Positions 17,788 through 43,021 of a DNA stretch of 64,000 nucleotides are shown piece after piece. Under the pieces are notes generated by a model that searched no databases, had not been told where the DNA came from, and worked only from the letters and a program-made list of their open reading frames with translations. The position numbers and the translations under genes are program-made. Source of the stretch: Pseudomonadota bacterium (lineage in GTDB: Bacteria; Pseudomonadota; Gammaproteobacteria; QQUJ01); assembly GCA_008501635.1 (NCBI GenBank), contig QQUJ01000010.1, positions 682,001-746,000 on the forward strand, read 5' to 3'. How positions within the stretch are numbered: position 1 is the stretch's first letter; each line of letters begins with the position of its first letter.

Positions 17788-18195
17788 TCAGCGGCCCGTG
17801 TAGGGTGAAGGCGCCTGCAGTTTCTCGCGGCGCACCTGACATGCAAAGCAGCGTTTGGCGGTCGGATACGCATCCAGTCGTTTGTACCGGATGGCCGTTC
17901 CGCAGTCGGTGCACAGGCCGTACCGCCCGGCCGCTATGCGGTCCTCCGCCGCGGCGATGTCACGCACCTCTCCCACGTCGCGGATGATCTCGGCCTCGGT
18001 GATGTCGCGGAGCACGGAGGCTGCCGCCACATCGCCGGAATCGCCCGCCCCGCCGATGAGATCGACAAGGTGCTCGGTGCTGGAGCGTGCGAGCACCTGG
18101 CGGATTTCGTCCAGCAAAAGGTTCTTGCGTGCTTCGATGCGTTGCGCGAAATGCGTGATCTGTTCTTTTGTGAGGGGATTGTCAGGGGCATTCAT
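17788..18195 (-). CDS. TraR/DksA-family C4 zinc-finger protein
   Basis: A 135-residue protein with a helical N-terminal part and a C-terminal four-cysteine zinc finger, CTDCG...CFAC, followed by a basic tail. DksA/TraR proteins bind the secondary channel of RNA polymerase and modulate stress-dependent initiation. The start MNAPDNPLTKEQ at 18195 is preferred, because upstream in-frame codons encode no family sequence. It is shorter than DksA and has an Ala/Asp-rich middle part. Whether it acts on polymerase cannot be told from the sequence. Confidence 0.85.
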   Translation of the reverse strand: MNAPDNPLTKEQITHFAQRIEARKNLLLDEIRQVLARSSTEHLVDLIGGAGDSGDVAAASVLRDITEAEIIRDVGEVRDIAAAEDRIAAGRYGLCTDCGTAIRYKRLDAYPTAKRCFACQVRREKLQAPSPYTGR

Positions 18196-18534
18196 GGCGT
18201 CATGGTCAGCAGTTTGTGGAAACAGGCACCGATCTGTGCCAGCGCACACCCTCGATAGTCCGGGATGCTCTTCGAGCGTAGCGCTTGGAAGGTGTCAAGG
18301 CAAGGGGCTGGCGAGGCCGGCTCTGCCTTGGCCAGCCGCCGGCGGCAGTGTCGGCGGTATGATGGAGGGCCCATTCATGAATGGATACATCCGACCGCGA
18401 CTTTCCAGCATCCGCATCCACATTGATCTCTGGCGATTGTTTTCCATTGTGGCGGACACTCCGGCTTGCCAAATTCCGATTCGAGGCACAGGCGACCGTA
18501 CGGGTCAGCACATCAAGTCGGTGTGACGTCAAAT

Positions 18535-19293: not shown

Positions 19294-19348
19294 TTAGACT
19301 GTAGCCTTGGCTTCGCTTACAACTCCACAGGAGCATTTTCACACCATC

Positions 19349-20059
19349 ATGCCTACGTCCGACATCATTAGCATTCTGTCCCTCGATACCCTGGTACCGC
19401 TGCTTGTCGCACTCGTCACCGGTGGGCTAATCGGGCTGGAGCGCACCTCACACGGCCGGCCCGCCGGCTTTCGCACTCACGCACTGGTGTGTGTCTCCTC
19501 CAGCCTGCTGATGTTGGTCGCCACCCATCAGCTGCGTCTTATGGGCGACATACCACTCGAAACTATTCGCATCGACCCGACGCGCATGGGGCAGGGCGTC
19601 ATGACCGGCATCGGCTTTCTTGGCGCGGGTGTGGTAATGAAGGAAGGTCTGACCATCCGCGGTCTGACGACTGCCGCTTCGATCTGGATGACCGCGGCGA
19701 TCGGCATTCTACTGGGACTGGAGTTCTACGTGCCAGCTATGCAGGCGGCGGTCATAAGTCTCGTGGTGTTGTCGCTGTTCCGTTGGGTCGAGAACGCGAT
19801 TCCTTCCCTGCACTACGGCAATCTCAGCGTGCGTTTTGCGCATGACAGCATCATGCCGCAAGCGGCCTTGCAAGAACTGATCATGCAACACGGCATCACA
19901 GCTGCCAATCCAAGTTATTCACTGAAAGACGCCAAAGGGATATTCGAATACGTGATGATCATCCGTACCCGTAAACGTGATGACTTCCGTCGACTGGCTG
20001 AAACGTTAGCCGAACTCCCGCAAGTGCGAGAATTCTCCATCAATACGACTGGCGACTGA
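19349..20059 (+). CDS. MgtC/SapB-family membrane protein
   Basis: A 236-residue inner-membrane protein. The N-terminal MgtC domain has LVTGGLIGLERTSHGRPAGFRTHALVC, QGVMTGIGFLGAGVVMKEG and the LTTAASIWMTAAIGI block, spanning four to five helices. A soluble C-terminal ACT-like part begins around residue 150. Family members affect Mg2+ homeostasis, F-ATPase activity and survival at low Mg2+. The ATG at 19349 begins MPTSDIISIL, just before the first helix. It stands alone between two dead IS elements. Confidence 0.9.
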   Translation: MPTSDIISILSLDTLVPLLVALVTGGLIGLERTSHGRPAGFRTHALVCVSSSLLMLVATHQLRLMGDIPLETIRIDPTRMGQGVMTGIGFLGAGVVMKEGLTIRGLTTAASIWMTAAIGILLGLEFYVPAMQAAVISLVVLSLFRWVENAIPSLHYGNLSVRFAHDSIMPQAALQELIMQHGITAANPSYSLKDAKGIFEYVMIIRTRKRDDFRRLAETLAELPQVREFSINTTGD

Positions 20060-20243: not shown

Positions 20244-20985
20244 CTACGTCGATTGCAAAACAATACTCTTCGCACTGTCCTCAACCGTCAGTGGGCGAGA
20301 GCGGTGACCTTTCTTGTTGGTAAAGTCCTGCGCACCCGGAGCCTGCTCGTGGATGACATCGGCTTGCCCGGTATAGGTCGAATCGCCCCGCGCCCGGGTT
20401 TCATCACCATGCAACAGTTGATGCAGCAGCTGACTGTCATGCGCGTTGGCCGCTGTGGAGGCGACCGGGTGGATCGACCTGGTGCGGCTGTCGACCCCGA
20501 TATGGGCCTTTATGCTGAAGCACCATTGATTGCCCTTCTTCGTCTGATGCATTTCCGGATCTCGTTTCCCCGCCCGATTCCAGGTCGAACTCGGTGCGTT
20601 GATGATCATGGTATCGACGATCGTTCCGGTGCAGACCTTCAATCCATTTCCTTGAAGCTACTGCGAAACCAACGTAAACAGCCGGTCACCCAGGTGATGC
20701 ACCTCCAGAAGATGACGGAGCTTGAAAATCGTTGTCTCGTCCGGCGCCGGCTCCCGGCCCAGGTCGATGCCAACAAATCGGCGTGTCGCGCGCGAGTCGT
20801 ACAAGTGCTCTTTCACCGCCGGGTCGGACAGGTTGAACCAGTGCTGCAGAAGATGAATGCGCAGCATGCGCTCGATACCGATCGGTGGACGGTCCGCACC
20901 TTGGCCTTTGGGATAAATCGTTTTGATAACCTCGTACAGACCGTCGAGCTCGTGTTGGACAGACTTCGGCAATGCCGCGCTGCGG
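20244..20985 (-). mobile_element. IS5-family transposase remnant, frameshifted
   Basis: The minus strand first reads IYPKGQGADRPPIGIERML, then HLLQHWFNLSDPAVKEHLYD, FVGIDLG and PDETTIFKLRHLLE (20972-20658). In another frame it continues with KVCTGTIVDTMIINAPSSTW and the DDE block with GDSTYTGQ (20642-20244). It is a different copy from the element at 18.5-19.3 kb. The first residues are missing, and the 5' break lies immediately beside the EF-G-like gene. At least one frameshift (around 20642-20658) inactivates it. Confidence 0.85.
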
Positions 20986-20986
20986 G

Positions 20987-21517
20987 TCAGGCCGCGCCGT
21001 CCGGTCCGCCGCCGTGCAGCGGTGCATAGTGGCTGAAGCCCATTTCGAGTCGCGCGTGGCCGTCGACCAGGAAGTCGAGTTCTGTTTCATAGCCAAGCAG
21101 CTCCGACAGCGGAGCCAGCGCGCACAGCCGGGTATGTTCGGGCGAGCCAGTCGCGGAGGAGGTCTCGCAATCGCGCAGTACCGCCCGGCGCCCGAGCAGA
21201 TTGGTGCGCAGCAACGGCAGGTGGACAGACGGGATGTCGATGACGATCCACATCACGGGCTCGGCCGGTTCCGGCTCGGACTGGTAACGGACCCTGGGCT
21301 CGCCGATCTCGAGGACCTCCGGGTAGTGATTACGCAGCGCGGCTGTAGCCTCCGCCAGTCCTCGCTCGTTTTCGGCCAGCAAGCGCAAGCCCCTCGGTGT
21401 GGCTTCCGTCATCGCAATCGGTTGCGGACCAAGCCGTTTCGCCGCCTCAGCGGCAAATCCGGTCTGTATATCGAGTCCGCGCTTACGGACCAGCTGTTCG
21501 AGCAGATGAATAGACAT
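20987..21517 (-). CDS. Free-standing EF-G domain V-like protein
   Basis: A 176-residue soluble protein. Its C-terminal half resembles domain V of elongation factor G. EPVMWIVIDIPSVHLPLLRTN matches the start of that domain, LLGRRAVL the second strand, and LCALAPLSELLGYETELDFL plus ARLEMGFSHYAPL the hallmark PLSE-FGY...FSHY end. No GTPase domain exists. The N-terminal 90 residues are helical and unassigned. ATG 21517 is preferred over upstream in-frame starts that give no family sequence. It follows the Rnk-like gene in the same direction, 61 bp away. A ribosome-binding role is suggested by the fold only. Confidence 0.7.
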   Translation of the reverse strand: MSIHLLEQLVRKRGLDIQTGFAAEAAKRLGPQPIAMTEATPRGLRLLAENERGLAEATAALRNHYPEVLEIGEPRVRYQSEPEPAEPVMWIVIDIPSVHLPLLRTNLLGRRAVLRDCETSSATGSPEHTRLCALAPLSELLGYETELDFLVDGHARLEMGFSHYAPLHGGGPDGAA

Positions 21518-21578
21518 GTGCGAGGCTCCCCAACAAGACGAATAGAACGGAAACTTTCGAGACTTTTTCAACGATGCG

Positions 21579-21992
21579 CTAGAGATCGAAATCCCCGGCT
21601 GCTTCCGGTTGATACAGCAGACATTCCACCCGCCAGCGACGCAAGACGGCTGGCAGCGCCACCTCAATGATCTCCCCGACACGTGCCCCGAACAGGGCCG
21701 CGCCTAACGGCGCAAGGACCGAGATACGCCCGCGAGTGACGTCAGCACTGTGCGGAAAGACCAGCGTGCATTCCATGGGGTTGTAGTGGTCCAGGTCCTG
21801 CAGCACCACCACACTGTGCATGGTGACCACATCCCGGGGGATCTCCGGTGGCGGCAGTTGGTCGCCGCCCTGGAGTTTGTCGATCAGCCGCTCCAGGGAT
21901 TCGGTATCGTAACTGCTCGGGTTTATATCCTGGATCAAGCGAGTCAGACGCTGGACGTCGTGAAGGGAAAGATTGTCGGTATGCGGATTCAT
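21579..21992 (-). CDS. Rnk-like GreA/GreB C-terminal domain protein
   Basis: A 137-residue regulator of the Rnk (nucleoside diphosphate kinase regulator) family. A short helical N-terminus is followed by the FKBP-like GreA-C domain: VTMHSVVVLQDLDHYNPMECTLVFP, then RISVLAPLGAALFGARVGEII and a VECLLYQPEAAGDF end. Rnk proteins bind RNA polymerase near the secondary channel without the Gre coiled coil. ATG 21992 has CAGGAGCAG upstream. A paralogue lies at 40548-40958. Confidence 0.88.
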   Translation of the reverse strand: MNPHTDNLSLHDVQRLTRLIQDINPSSYDTESLERLIDKLQGGDQLPPPEIPRDVVTMHSVVVLQDLDHYNPMECTLVFPHSADVTRGRISVLAPLGAALFGARVGEIIEVALPAVLRRWRVECLLYQPEAAGDFDL

Positions 21993-23012
21993 CGCTACTG
22001 CTCCTGTAAACAAATAGGAATCCCCGCACTCCGCACAGCGAATTTATCGCGCTCGTATGAGCGGCCCGCCTGCACGGAAGAGTGGAATAATCGGGATCGA
22101 GTGGAACAAACCCGGGGCGCGGGAAAAACGCGCCCCGGTCTAGCGCGGCGTTTTGGTGCGCGCTCCCATAGTGACCGGGGTGGGGATCATCAGGGCCGGG
22201 ACGCAGCAGACATGCAGAGGACAAAACGACATGGCGAACTCCTGCGGTGGAAGGGCCGGAACGGACAGCCGGCCAAATAATCACGCGAGAGCATAGCAGT
22301 TCTCCGAATAAAGGCCAACGGTTGCGCTTGAACACGTATGTTACGTGTTTTGCCTCTGCTCGCCCGTGATGTCGTTGAAGGAAACCCGTTACCCAGGGTG
22401 ATTATTTTCGTTTCGATGTGGCCTTTTCCCGCCAGGCATTCAAAACAGACTTTCGGCTTGATAATGATGGCTCTTGAGAATGCTCACATAAACACGTGAA
22501 CCGGATGTCGCGCGGCGGTATCAGTTCGTTAACTGTTTCGCGTTTTACCGGAGACGGTTGACAAGTCTGGTGGCCTGTCCTCTAATCAGATGTCCTTCCT
22601 CTCAATCCATTAACAGGGTGGGCAGACAATTGGACCATTTAACGTTTGTCTGATTTCAGCATTAGGTGATCGCTGGATCAGAGTCGGTTTTGTCACGTGT
22701 AAAGTGTGATTCGCTGATTAGAACTGCGGATAAATGTATTCGATCGCTGCCGGTACACAGTTTTTGGAAATTCTCCGGATAAACGTCGGTAAGCGCCTGG
22801 ACCCGATTTGAGTCATCTCAAACCTGTTTCAGGACTTGCCACATGCGTGGATTTTCCTCGTACGTTCGAGCCTTAATCGTCGCTCTGCGACGCCGAAAAT
22901 GTGCCAGGGGCTTTTTAAGGCACGCTGGGTTCCTTGCGATCAATGGCCTTTACATGTGGCATTGCGTAAATTTTTGAATCAATGATCATGATTGAAGAAT
23001 TGAGGATTTGCC
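21993..23012. other. Long gene-free stretch
   Basis: About 1 kb without a supported gene. It is AT-richer than the flanking coding DNA, especially at 22380-22800. It presumably holds the promoters of the Rnk-like gene (minus) and the 43-residue protein (plus), but no clear operator, RNA gene or transposon end was recognised. Confidence 0.5.
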
Positions 23013-27772: not shown

Positions 27773-28252
27773 ATGCCTACCTTCGTCTATATGACAAGGT
27801 GCGACGGATGCGGACATTGCGTCGACATCTGTCCCTCGGACATCATGCACATCGATAAGACCTATCGTCGTGCCTACAACATCGAGCCTAACATGTGCTG
27901 GGAGTGCTACTCCTGCGTCAAAGCTTGTCCGCAGAATGCGATCGATGTGCGCGGATATGCCGACTTTGCCCCACTCGGTCACAGCGTTCGTGTCCAGCGA
28001 GACGAAGAGAAAGGCACGATCGCCTGGAAGATCAAATTCCGGAATGGTGCGGAAAAGAACTTCCTGTCGCCCATCACCACCAAGCCCTGGGGGACTGCGG
28101 ACCCCAAGCTCGCGGATGTTCCCGGGCCCAGCCAAGAAATGCGCGACAGCCAGCTGTTGTACAGCGAGCCGAAATATATCCGCTTGGATGACGGCGGTTT
28201 GCATACCCTTAAGTCCAATGGTCTCACGATGAAGAAAGGCGTGTATTACTGA
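27773..28252 (+). CDS. aprB: Adenylylsulfate reductase beta subunit
   Basis: Iron-sulfur subunit of dissimilatory APS reductase, 159 residues. Two [4Fe-4S] motifs are clear near the N-terminus: CDGCGHCVDICPSD and CWECYSCVKACPQN. The C-terminal half wraps the alpha subunit in known structures. With AprA it oxidises sulfite plus AMP to APS in sulfur oxidisers, in the cytoplasm. The stop codon shares one base with the aprA ATG (TGATG), so translation is coupled. Confidence 0.97.
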   Translation: MPTFVYMTRCDGCGHCVDICPSDIMHIDKTYRRAYNIEPNMCWECYSCVKACPQNAIDVRGYADFAPLGHSVRVQRDEEKGTIAWKIKFRNGAEKNFLSPITTKPWGTADPKLADVPGPSQEMRDSQLLYSEPKYIRLDDGGLHTLKSNGLTMKKGVYY

Positions 28253-30120
28253 TGGCTTACGAAACGATCGTCGAAGAAGGCATCGATATTCTGGTCGTCG
28301 GTGCGGGTCTTGGCGGCACTGGTGCCGCTTGGGAGGCCAGATTCTGGGGTCAGAACAAAAAGATTGTCATTGCCGAGAAGGCCAATATCGATCGCTCCGG
28401 TGCGGTCGCCCAGGGTCTGTACGCTATCAACTGCTATATGGGCACCCGCTGGGGCGAAAACAAGCCGGAGGACCATGTCCGCTACGCTCGTATCGATCTG
28501 ATGGGGATGGTGCGGGAAGACCTGTTGTTCGATATGGCCCGTCACGTTGACTCTGCGGTACATCAGTTCGAAGAGTGGGGCCTGCCCATCATGAAGGACC
28601 CGAAAACCGGGCGCTATCTGCGTGAAGGGCGATGGCAGATCATGATTCACGGCGAGTCCTACAAGCCGATCGTGGCCGAGGCCGCCAAAAAATCGGCCGA
28701 CAAGATCTTCAACCGTATCTGCGTCACCCACCTGCTGATGGATGAAAGCAAGGAGAACCGGGTTGCCGGTGCCGTTGGTTTCAACGTCCGCACAGGCAAC
28801 TACCACGTCTTCAAGTCCAAGACTGTGATCTGCGGCGCGGGCGGCGCCTCCAACATCTTCAAACCGCGTTCAGTGGGCGAAGGTTCCGGCCGCACCTGGT
28901 ATGCACCCTGGTCGTCCGCGTCTGCCTATGGGCTCATGATCAACGCCGGCGCCAAAATGACGCAGATGGAAAATCGTATCGTACTGGCGCGTTTCAAGGA
29001 CGGTTATGGCCCGGTCGGCGCCTACTTCCTGCACCTTAAGACCTATACGCAAAACGGTCTGGGCGAAGAGTACGAATCCAAATGGTTCCCCGAATTGCAG
29101 AAACTGGTCGGCAAGGAATATCTCGATCCGGAAGCCTCACACCTGACCCATCGGCCGATCCCGACCTGTTTGCGTAACCATGCATTGATCAGCGAAGTTA
29201 ATGCCGGCCGCGGCCCCATTCACATGGTGACCATGCAGGCCTTCCAGGATCCCCATCTGGAAGAGGTCGGTTGGGAGAACTTCCTCGGCATGACCATCGG
29301 CCAGGCGGTTCTGTGGGCCTCCACCGATGTGGATCCCAAGAACGAAAATCCCGAACTGACCACATCCGAGCCCTACGTAATGGGCTCCCACGCCACCGGA
29401 TCGGGTGCGTGGTGCTCAGGTCCCGAGGACGTTTCCCCTCCCGAGTATTTCTGGGGCTACAATCGCATGACGACGATCGAGGGCTTGTTCGGCGCCGGTG
29501 ATGCAGTCGGCGGCACGCCGCACGCCTTCTCATCCGGTTCGTTCACCGAAGGTCGTCTCGCCGCGAAGGCTGCCTGTAAATACATCGATGACGGAAAGGC
29601 CGAAGGCATTGTCGTGTCCAATGAGCAGATCAACCGCCGCAAGCAAGAGATCTACAAGCCCCTTGAGCATTACAAGATCTACCGCAATGCGATCGTGGCG
29701 GGCGATGTCAACCCGCACTACATCAATCCCAAGCAGGGCCTGGACCGTCTGCAGAAGCTGATGGACGAGTATTGCGGCGGAGTGACCGTCAACTACATGA
29801 CCAACGAGAAGCTCCTGAATATCGGTCTCAAAAAGCTCGAGATCATGGAGGAAGACCTTGAGAAATTGGCCGCAGAAGATATTCACGAGTTGCTGCGTGC
29901 GTGGGAATTGAAGCACCGTCATCGCGCAGCAGAATGCGTCACGCAGCATACGCTGTTCCGCAAGGAGACCCGTTGGCCGGGTTACTACTACCGGGGCGAC
30001 GCCATGAAGGTGGACGATGAAAACTGGCACGTGCTGACTGTTTCGCGGCGCGATCCGGAAACCGGCGAATACACCATGGAGAAGGCGCCTTGTTATCACT
30101 TGGTTGCGGATGACGAGTAG
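28252..30120 (+). CDS. aprA: Adenylylsulfate reductase alpha subunit
   Basis: FAD-containing catalytic subunit, 622 residues. The dinucleotide-binding motif is VVGAGLGGTGAAWEA. The fumarate reductase-like fold retains AprA blocks such as NCYMGTRWGENKPEDHVRY, GRWQIMIHGESYKP, RFKDGYGPVGAYFLHLKT and GSHATGSGAWCSGPED. The length is the family norm. Placement with aprM upstream and no hdr/qmo downstream points to the sulfite-oxidising direction. A hairpin (30130-30160) follows the stop. Confidence 0.98.
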   Translation: MAYETIVEEGIDILVVGAGLGGTGAAWEARFWGQNKKIVIAEKANIDRSGAVAQGLYAINCYMGTRWGENKPEDHVRYARIDLMGMVREDLLFDMARHVDSAVHQFEEWGLPIMKDPKTGRYLREGRWQIMIHGESYKPIVAEAAKKSADKIFNRICVTHLLMDESKENRVAGAVGFNVRTGNYHVFKSKTVICGAGGASNIFKPRSVGEGSGRTWYAPWSSASAYGLMINAGAKMTQMENRIVLARFKDGYGPVGAYFLHLKTYTQNGLGEEYESKWFPELQKLVGKEYLDPEASHLTHRPIPTCLRNHALISEVNAGRGPIHMVTMQAFQDPHLEEVGWENFLGMTIGQAVLWASTDVDPKNENPELTTSEPYVMGSHATGSGAWCSGPEDVSPPEYFWGYNRMTTIEGLFGAGDAVGGTPHAFSSGSFTEGRLAAKAACKYIDDGKAEGIVVSNEQINRRKQEIYKPLEHYKIYRNAIVAGDVNPHYINPKQGLDRLQKLMDEYCGGVTVNYMTNEKLLNIGLKKLEIMEEDLEKLAAEDIHELLRAWELKHRHRAAECVTQHTLFRKETRWPGYYYRGDAMKVDDENWHVLTVSRRDPETGEYTMEKAPCYHLVADDE

Positions 30121-40547: not shown

Positions 40548-40958
40548 ATGAACACTAGGCCAGGAATTATACTGACATCGCAGGATCTGAATCGCCTGGA
40601 GACGCTGCTTGATGCACTACCGACGGACGCCTTTCCGGGCAAGGTCGAGCTGCGGGCGGAACTCGATCGTGCCGAGGTCGTCGAGCCACAGGACATCCCG
40701 CCCGATGTGGTGACCATGAACAGCAGGGTGCGCTTTGCGCTGGAATCGGGAGAAGAGTTCTCCCTGACACTGGTGTACCCGAAGGATATGGATGGCAGCG
40801 CCGACCGTATCTCGATAATCGCACCCGTCGGCAGTGCGCTGTTGGGGCTGTCTGCAGGTGAACACATCGAGTGGCCCCGGCCGGGTGGCGGAATACTGAA
40901 GGTGCGTCTTGTGGAAGTCGTCTACCAACCCGAGCGGGCTGGTGACTTCCACCGCTAG
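40548..40958 (+). CDS. Rnk-like GreA/GreB C-terminal domain protein, second copy
   Basis: A 136-residue paralogue of the protein at 21579-21992. It has a short helical N-terminus, LTSQDLNRLETLLDALPTD, followed by the GreA-C domain with IPPDVVTMNSRVRFALESGEEF, then ISIIAPVGSALLGLSAGEHIEW and VRLVEVVYQPERAGDFHR. It has the same domain layout and end (Y-Q-P-E-x-A-G-D-F) as the first copy. The expected role is binding RNA polymerase, as for Rnk. The ATG follows a gene-free region of about 270 bp that should carry its promoter. Confidence 0.88.
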   Translation: MNTRPGIILTSQDLNRLETLLDALPTDAFPGKVELRAELDRAEVVEPQDIPPDVVTMNSRVRFALESGEEFSLTLVYPKDMDGSADRISIIAPVGSALLGLSAGEHIEWPRPGGGILKVRLVEVVYQPERAGDFHR

Positions 40959-41878: not shown

Positions 41879-43021
41879 ATGAATTCACTTGCACAGGATT
41901 ACCCGGCCATTCTCTCTGGCGATCACCAACCGCCCTGTCTCTCCCTGTATCAGCCGACATATAGACAACACCCGGACAATGCGCAGGATCCCATCCGCTT
42001 CCGCAACCTGGTGAAGAAGATGGAGGAATCATTGCGGCAGAAATACCCGAAACAGAAAATCAAGTCGCTTATGCAGCCGTTCGAGGCTCTGGCTGAAGAC
42101 CGGGCTTTCTGGAATCACACTGGGGACGGGCTCGCGATTCTGAGTGCGCCCGGGTTGTTCCGTGTTTATAGGCTGCAGCGCCCGGTTGCCGAACTGGTGG
42201 TTGTCGCCGACAGTTTTCACACCAAACCGCTGATGCGCATCGCACAGTCGGCCGACCGCTACCAGATTCTTGGTCTGAACCGGCGGGCGTTCAAGGTGTT
42301 CGAGGGTAATCGCGACGCGCTGGACGAAATTCTGCCGATCGAAGGCGTACCGCAATCGACTGCCGAACTGCTGGGCAAAGAGGCCGACGCTCGTGAAGGT
42401 GCGCATCGCACCTACGGGCCTACCGGCGGCGCCACGGGACATGGCACCGATGTCAAACAGGATGCCGCAGACCGTGACACCCAACAATTTTTCCGCGCGG
42501 TCGATCAGGTGGTGTTGCAACATTGTTCGCAACCCTCAGGGCTGCGTCTGATACTGGCGGCGCTACCCGAGCACCACAATCGGTTTCGCAGGATCAGCCG
42601 CAACCCGTTATTGATAAAAGAAGCGCTCGACGTTCACCCGGATGATCTGTCGCTCGATGCGCTGCGTGAACGTGCCTGGCAACTGGTGCAACCGTATTAC
42701 CTCGAGCGGCTGGCGGGTCTGGTGGAAGCCTTTGGCGCGGCCATTGCAAATGGGCAGGGCGCGGATGAGCCTGGCGACATTGCCAGGGCCGCCATCGCCG
42801 GGCGAGTCGCAACACTGTTGATCGAGGCCGACCGTTTGATTCCTGGAGTTATCGATGTTGCAAGCGGCGATATCATCCCCAGTGATCTGAACCATCCGGA
42901 AGTTGACGATGTGCTCGACGACCTCGGCGAGCACGTACTCAAGGCCGGTGGCGAGGTTGTGATCGTTCCCGCCGAGCGAATGCCAACGAAGTCCGGCGCT
43001 GCTGCGATCTATCGTTTTTGA
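41879..43021 (+). CDS. Bacterial archaeo-eukaryotic release factor-like protein (baeRF)
   Basis: A 380-residue soluble protein of the baeRF group (related to the middle and C-terminal domains of eRF1/Pelota). It contains FWNHTGDGLAIL, FRVYRLQRPVAELVVVADSF and RYQILGLNRRAFKVFEGN, typical of the group. A central glycine/alanine-rich linker (about residues 175-195) follows. The C-terminal L7Ae-like part has ATLLIEADRLIPG and VDDVLDDLGEHVLKAGGEVVIVP. Such proteins are thought to act on ribosomes or tRNA; this is not shown here. GGAGGT precedes the ATG. Confidence 0.75.
   Translation: MNSLAQDYPAILSGDHQPPCLSLYQPTYRQHPDNAQDPIRFRNLVKKMEESLRQKYPKQKIKSLMQPFEALAEDRAFWNHTGDGLAILSAPGLFRVYRLQRPVAELVVVADSFHTKPLMRIAQSADRYQILGLNRRAFKVFEGNRDALDEILPIEGVPQSTAELLGKEADAREGAHRTYGPTGGATGHGTDVKQDAADRDTQQFFRAVDQVVLQHCSQPSGLRLILAALPEHHNRFRRISRNPLLIKEALDVHPDDLSLDALRERAWQLVQPYYLERLAGLVEAFGAAIANGQGADEPGDIARAAIAGRVATLLIEADRLIPGVIDVASGDIIPSDLNHPEVDDVLDDLGEHVLKAGGEVVIVPAERMPTKSGAAAIYRF

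Follow-up and report, generated by a model that had tools for sequence, protein, structure and literature searches.

We identified a family of small proteins that combine a domain V homologous to that of the translation factor EF-G with an N-terminal half resembling EF-G domain III and that have no GTPase domain. The founding member is encoded in the window (the whole 64,000-nucleotide stretch of DNA that was analyzed), next to an Rnk-like gene. The family is rare and patchy, occurring in a few gammaproteobacterial lineages, and is under purifying selection, and its genes are linked to stress genes. We are highly confident that these "III-V" proteins constitute a functional family in stress-linked contexts; a role at the factor-binding site of the ribosome is a more tentative proposal.

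The III-V gene and its domains

The complete gene for the 176-amino-acid (aa) III-V protein lies on the minus strand (20987..21517), with an ATG at 21517 and a stop codon at 20987-20989. A longer open reading frame (ORF) begins at 21682, but this position was rejected as the real start in favor of ATG 21517, which has a ribosome-binding site read from the sequence (GGGGAG, minus strand, 21526..21531) 8 nt upstream and corresponds to the methionine at which the homologues also start. A transposase in two ORFs (DDE_Tnp_1 and DUF772; minus strand, 20244-20972) abuts the 3′ end of the gene. The C-terminal residues of the window protein are identical to those of the protein from genome G474, where another gene follows, so the III-V gene looks intact. 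No FNR/Anr boxes were found near the gene starts. In two other member genomes, G427 and G441, a common stretch, AGAATAATTCCAAT, lies about 60 to 75 bases upstream of the family gene (loci L073 and L075) and is possibly a regulatory site.

The original prediction of a free-standing protein with EF-G domain V homology was borne out. Pfam EFG_C matched aa 86-169 (minus strand, 21011..21262) with an E value of 1.1e-10 and 41.8 bits (cut-off, 27.9), and it matched 11/11 aligned family members. When a family profile built from these 11 members was compared by HHalign with an EF-G III-V profile built from 96 sequences, domain V was recovered with a probability of 98.9 and an E value of 3.6e-17. The N-terminal half (aa 1-80; minus strand, 21278..21517), not described originally, resembles EF-G domain III, as judged from profile comparisons. 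On its own, this half aligned with EF-G at the correct position (HHalign E value, 2.3e-4; score, 30.8), and none of 300 column shuffles reached the real score (best, 22.1; an earlier set of 60 peaked at 25.7). The domain III match is weak across aa 1-50, and aa 51-80 were independently placed by HHalign on the last part of EF-G domain III. A TypA profile aligned with aa 25-173, spanning domains III and V unbroken with no domain IV between them, and alignment of the N-terminal half with LepA domain III was weak.

The absence of a GTPase domain and of domain IV, also predicted originally, held up as well. EFG_C was the sole Pfam domain of the 176-aa protein, in which neither the GTPase (G) domain nor domain II gave a match. 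Nor could a domain IV be accommodated, since the domain III-like part stops at aa 80 and domain V starts at about aa 81-86. By sequence comparison, then, this is a III-plus-V protein in which domain III runs directly into domain V, as it does in TypA/BipA and LepA, and domains G, II, and IV are missing. The III-V protein differs from TypA and LepA in having no GTPase, no domain II, and no family-specific C-terminal domain, and its domain V motifs (EPxM and PLxxLxGY) are, by eye, nearer those of EF-G. A domain V tree, based on few columns and with long branches, did not separate EF-G from TypA ancestry. Two AlphaFold models (four sequences, namely, the window protein and those of L079 to L081) were of low confidence (pLDDT, 48.7 and 46.0), and a Foldseek search with this output, which gave no match at an E value of ≤0.001, was disregarded for that reason.

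The family and its stress-gene neighborhoods

We found 14 family members: those of the window, G333 (64% identical to the window protein), G474, G018, G274, G371, G411 (twice), G427, G441, G389, SJ336 (L081, a metagenome-assembled genome), G071, and G834. Seven of the loci (G274, G371, both copies in G411, G427, G441, and G389) are designated Steroidobacteraceae-like, a label taken from one locus, L080 of G411, which is labeled Steroidobacter sp. The 369 genomes sampled from the gammaproteobacterial class included 5 with a member, and in a sample of 398 genomes from the phylum, members were confined to genomes of the window's own class. Scanning genome contigs with a six-member alignment returned three loci, one of them new, and no relative was found in IMG/VR or among plasmids. 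Searches of the literature revealed no description of the family, and we found no named family of III-plus-V architecture in Pfam or NCBIfam; such genes are thus annotated at best by their EF-G C-terminal domain.

The upstream gene of the window pair (minus strand, 21579..21992; ATG at 21992, stop at 21579) encodes a 137-aa protein with a GreA-C domain and is preceded by a ribosome-binding site, AGGAG, read from the sequence (minus strand, 22001..22005). It is on the same strand as the III-V gene, with 61 bases between them, in agreement with the predicted position of the III-V gene just after an Rnk/GreA-C gene. Its product matched Pfam GreA_GreB with an E value of 1.7e-17. Although it shares its length and GreA-C domain with Rnk, it scored 88 bits against the Rnk equivalog NF004396 (cut-off, 109) and 16.2 bits against Rnk_N (cut-off, 23.7), and because both scores are below the cut-off, we refer to it as Rnk-like rather than as canonical Rnk. 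Rnk itself is an RNA polymerase-binding protein and a competitor of Gre and DksA (PMC4598747). The canonical Rnk of the window is encoded by a separate gene (plus strand, 40548-40958; NF004396, 154.5 bits). Two genes downstream of the latter is a gene for a Balon-like protein (plus strand, 41879-43021), which scored 179 bits against the ribosome hibernation factor model NF052287 (below the equivalog cut-off of 330) and matched baeRF_family3 with an E value of 2.7e-41. Balon-like baeRF3 genes occur in 6/12 member genomes and outside the window are never close to the III-V gene, so we did not count their 20-kb colocation in the window as evidence.

Within 4 kb of the pair there are also genes for an MgtC-family membrane protein (plus strand, 19307..20059; Pfam MgtC E value, 2.3e-38) and, about 3 kb away, a DksA/TraR-type zinc-finger protein (minus strand, 17788-18249) that is likely another RNA polymerase secondary-channel binder. 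Elsewhere in the window, two genes that by eye resemble aprB and aprA (plus strand, 27773-30120) hint at a sulfur-metabolizing host.

Conservation of the gene pair in other genomes, the check suggested originally, was supported. An Rnk-like gene lies upstream of the III-V gene on the same strand in three genomes (window, G333, and G474), and a GreA-C/Rnk gene is divergent or nearby in G018, G411 (both copies), and G371. In total, 7 of 13 members had an Rnk/GreA-C gene within 2.5 kb, versus an expectation of 0.065 based on three to five GreA-C genes per genome. Kinship inflates this excess. The corresponding P value of 1e-13 is unadjusted for it and becomes about 3e-5 if only three independent lineages are counted. 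The Rnk partner is not obligatory, however: about half of the members (G274, G441, G389, G071, G834, and SJ336) had no close Rnk gene, and in G427 a GreA-C gene is about 9 kb away. In G474, the III-V gene sits between two GreA-C genes (L069, 5518-7175), the second of divergent type. In G834, the III-V gene shares 11 nt with the end of a Usp gene, and in G071 it overlaps the start of an MgtC gene (Pfam E value, 2.7e-40). Usp or GdhA clusters are found at Steroidobacteraceae-like members, and genes for Usp, glutamate dehydrogenase, and catalase are seen repeatedly near family members. The constant theme of these neighborhoods, with their Rnk, Usp, MgtC, and catalase genes, is stress response, and Rnk/GreA-C is the commonest single type of neighbor.

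Candidate roles of the III-V protein

The explanation we favor is that the III-V protein is a small, GTPase-less derivative of an EF-G-type translation factor that would be made together with stress genes (Rnk/GreA-C, Usp, and MgtC) and would act on the translation side of the stress response. Its domain V might bind on or close to the site where translation factors engage the ribosome (the stalk base and sarcin-ricin loop), or to a factor working there, and so slow or protect ribosomes that are idle; the linked Rnk/Gre-type protein, for its part, would act on RNA polymerase. Ribosome binding is plausible; coexpression with stress genes and an effect on translation are, like binding itself, what we infer. 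The EF-G mimicry and block of translocation suggested originally are likewise candidate effects only. We consider action at the factor site a tentative proposal whose chances fall somewhat short of even. Domain III of SBDS, a protein of archaea and eukaryotes, has an EF-G domain V-like fold and contacts the sarcin-ricin loop and the base of the P stalk (PMC6710477), and thus a domain V-type module outside a GTPase can work at the factor site. The partner domains of SBDS are different, and the likeness is one of module type. Balon, a relative of translation factors encoded in stress operons, is a hibernation factor (PMC10901736), so factor relatives in such operons can have this function. Balon and the baeRF proteins resemble the III-V family in being factor-derived and in having stress-gene contexts (PMC10901736), but they derive from aeRF1 and not from EF-G, and ribosome binding has been demonstrated for Balon only. 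A more specific version of our proposal is rather doubtful as a whole. In it, this unnamed family would consist of hibernation factors, or of factors that block translocation, which bind to idle ribosomes at the factor site, and their production together with an RNA polymerase secondary-channel protein would damp transcription and translation jointly.

Beyond the lack of domains G, II, and IV, the III-V protein differs from EF-G within domain V itself. In EF-G, 30 positions of domain V are conserved to 90% or more; for 15 of these, the EF-G residue is retained in half or more of the family. The 15 lost positions include the two LRSxTxGR arginines and, within the GDxxGDLNRRRG stretch, several in the helix, whereas the fold-type positions EPxM, PL, and GY are retained. 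With half of the EF-G-invariant positions gone, the surface facing the ribosome may be altered, which leaves room for a role off the ribosome. The EF-G fold might have been reused in a protein that serves the stress regulon as an adaptor and contacts not the ribosome but some other protein or an RNA, with the Rnk-like protein and Usp as possible partners, and the variation of neighbors from lineage to lineage would suit such an adaptor. We regard this as possible but improbable, as no other ligand or domain is visible and the match of EFG_C to every one of the scanned members is more than a free fold needs.

It is less probable still that the protein targets EF-G (or TypA or LepA) and not the empty ribosome, serving as a domain III/V decoy or as a modulator. 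Its two domains have relatives in EF-G that pack against each other; in addition to a full-length EF-G, the window's genome encodes a second EF-G, TypA, and LepA; and the FusB-type small proteins that work through EF-G (PMC4725979) are a precedent. However, the III-V gene lies apart from any full-length EF-G gene in that genome.

The tight same-strand pair in three genomes, together with the divergent or nearby pairs at four more loci, could also reflect a dedicated two-protein machine, a complex of the Rnk-like protein with the III-V protein that bridges RNA polymerase and the ribosome. Against this, half of the members lack a close Rnk gene, and the linked Rnk proteins range in subtype from canonical (L072 and L074) to divergent (window and L077). 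This combination is explained no less well by a shared stress regulon than by a dedicated complex, and we think the latter quite unlikely.

Finally, that the gene is a decaying remnant of an EF-G gene is barely credible: the loss of half of the invariant domain V positions and the transposase halves adjoining its 3′ end would fit decay, but we rejected a pseudogene on the basis of selection and conservation, given the same short length at 14 loci, dN/dS values of 0.08 to 0.28 across five pairwise comparisons (0.19 to 0.28 for the window gene versus those of G474 and G333), an intact ribosome-binding site, and the placement of the family apart from the canonical EF-G domain V sequences that were sampled (support, 100/99, on few columns).

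If the III-V proteins do bind ribosomes as we favor, they would be a bacterial example of a translational GTPase that has lost its motor and serves as a regulator, by a logic like that of SBDS and Balon. The operon with the Rnk-like protein would then allow a direct test of whether RNA polymerase and the ribosome are controlled jointly under stress.
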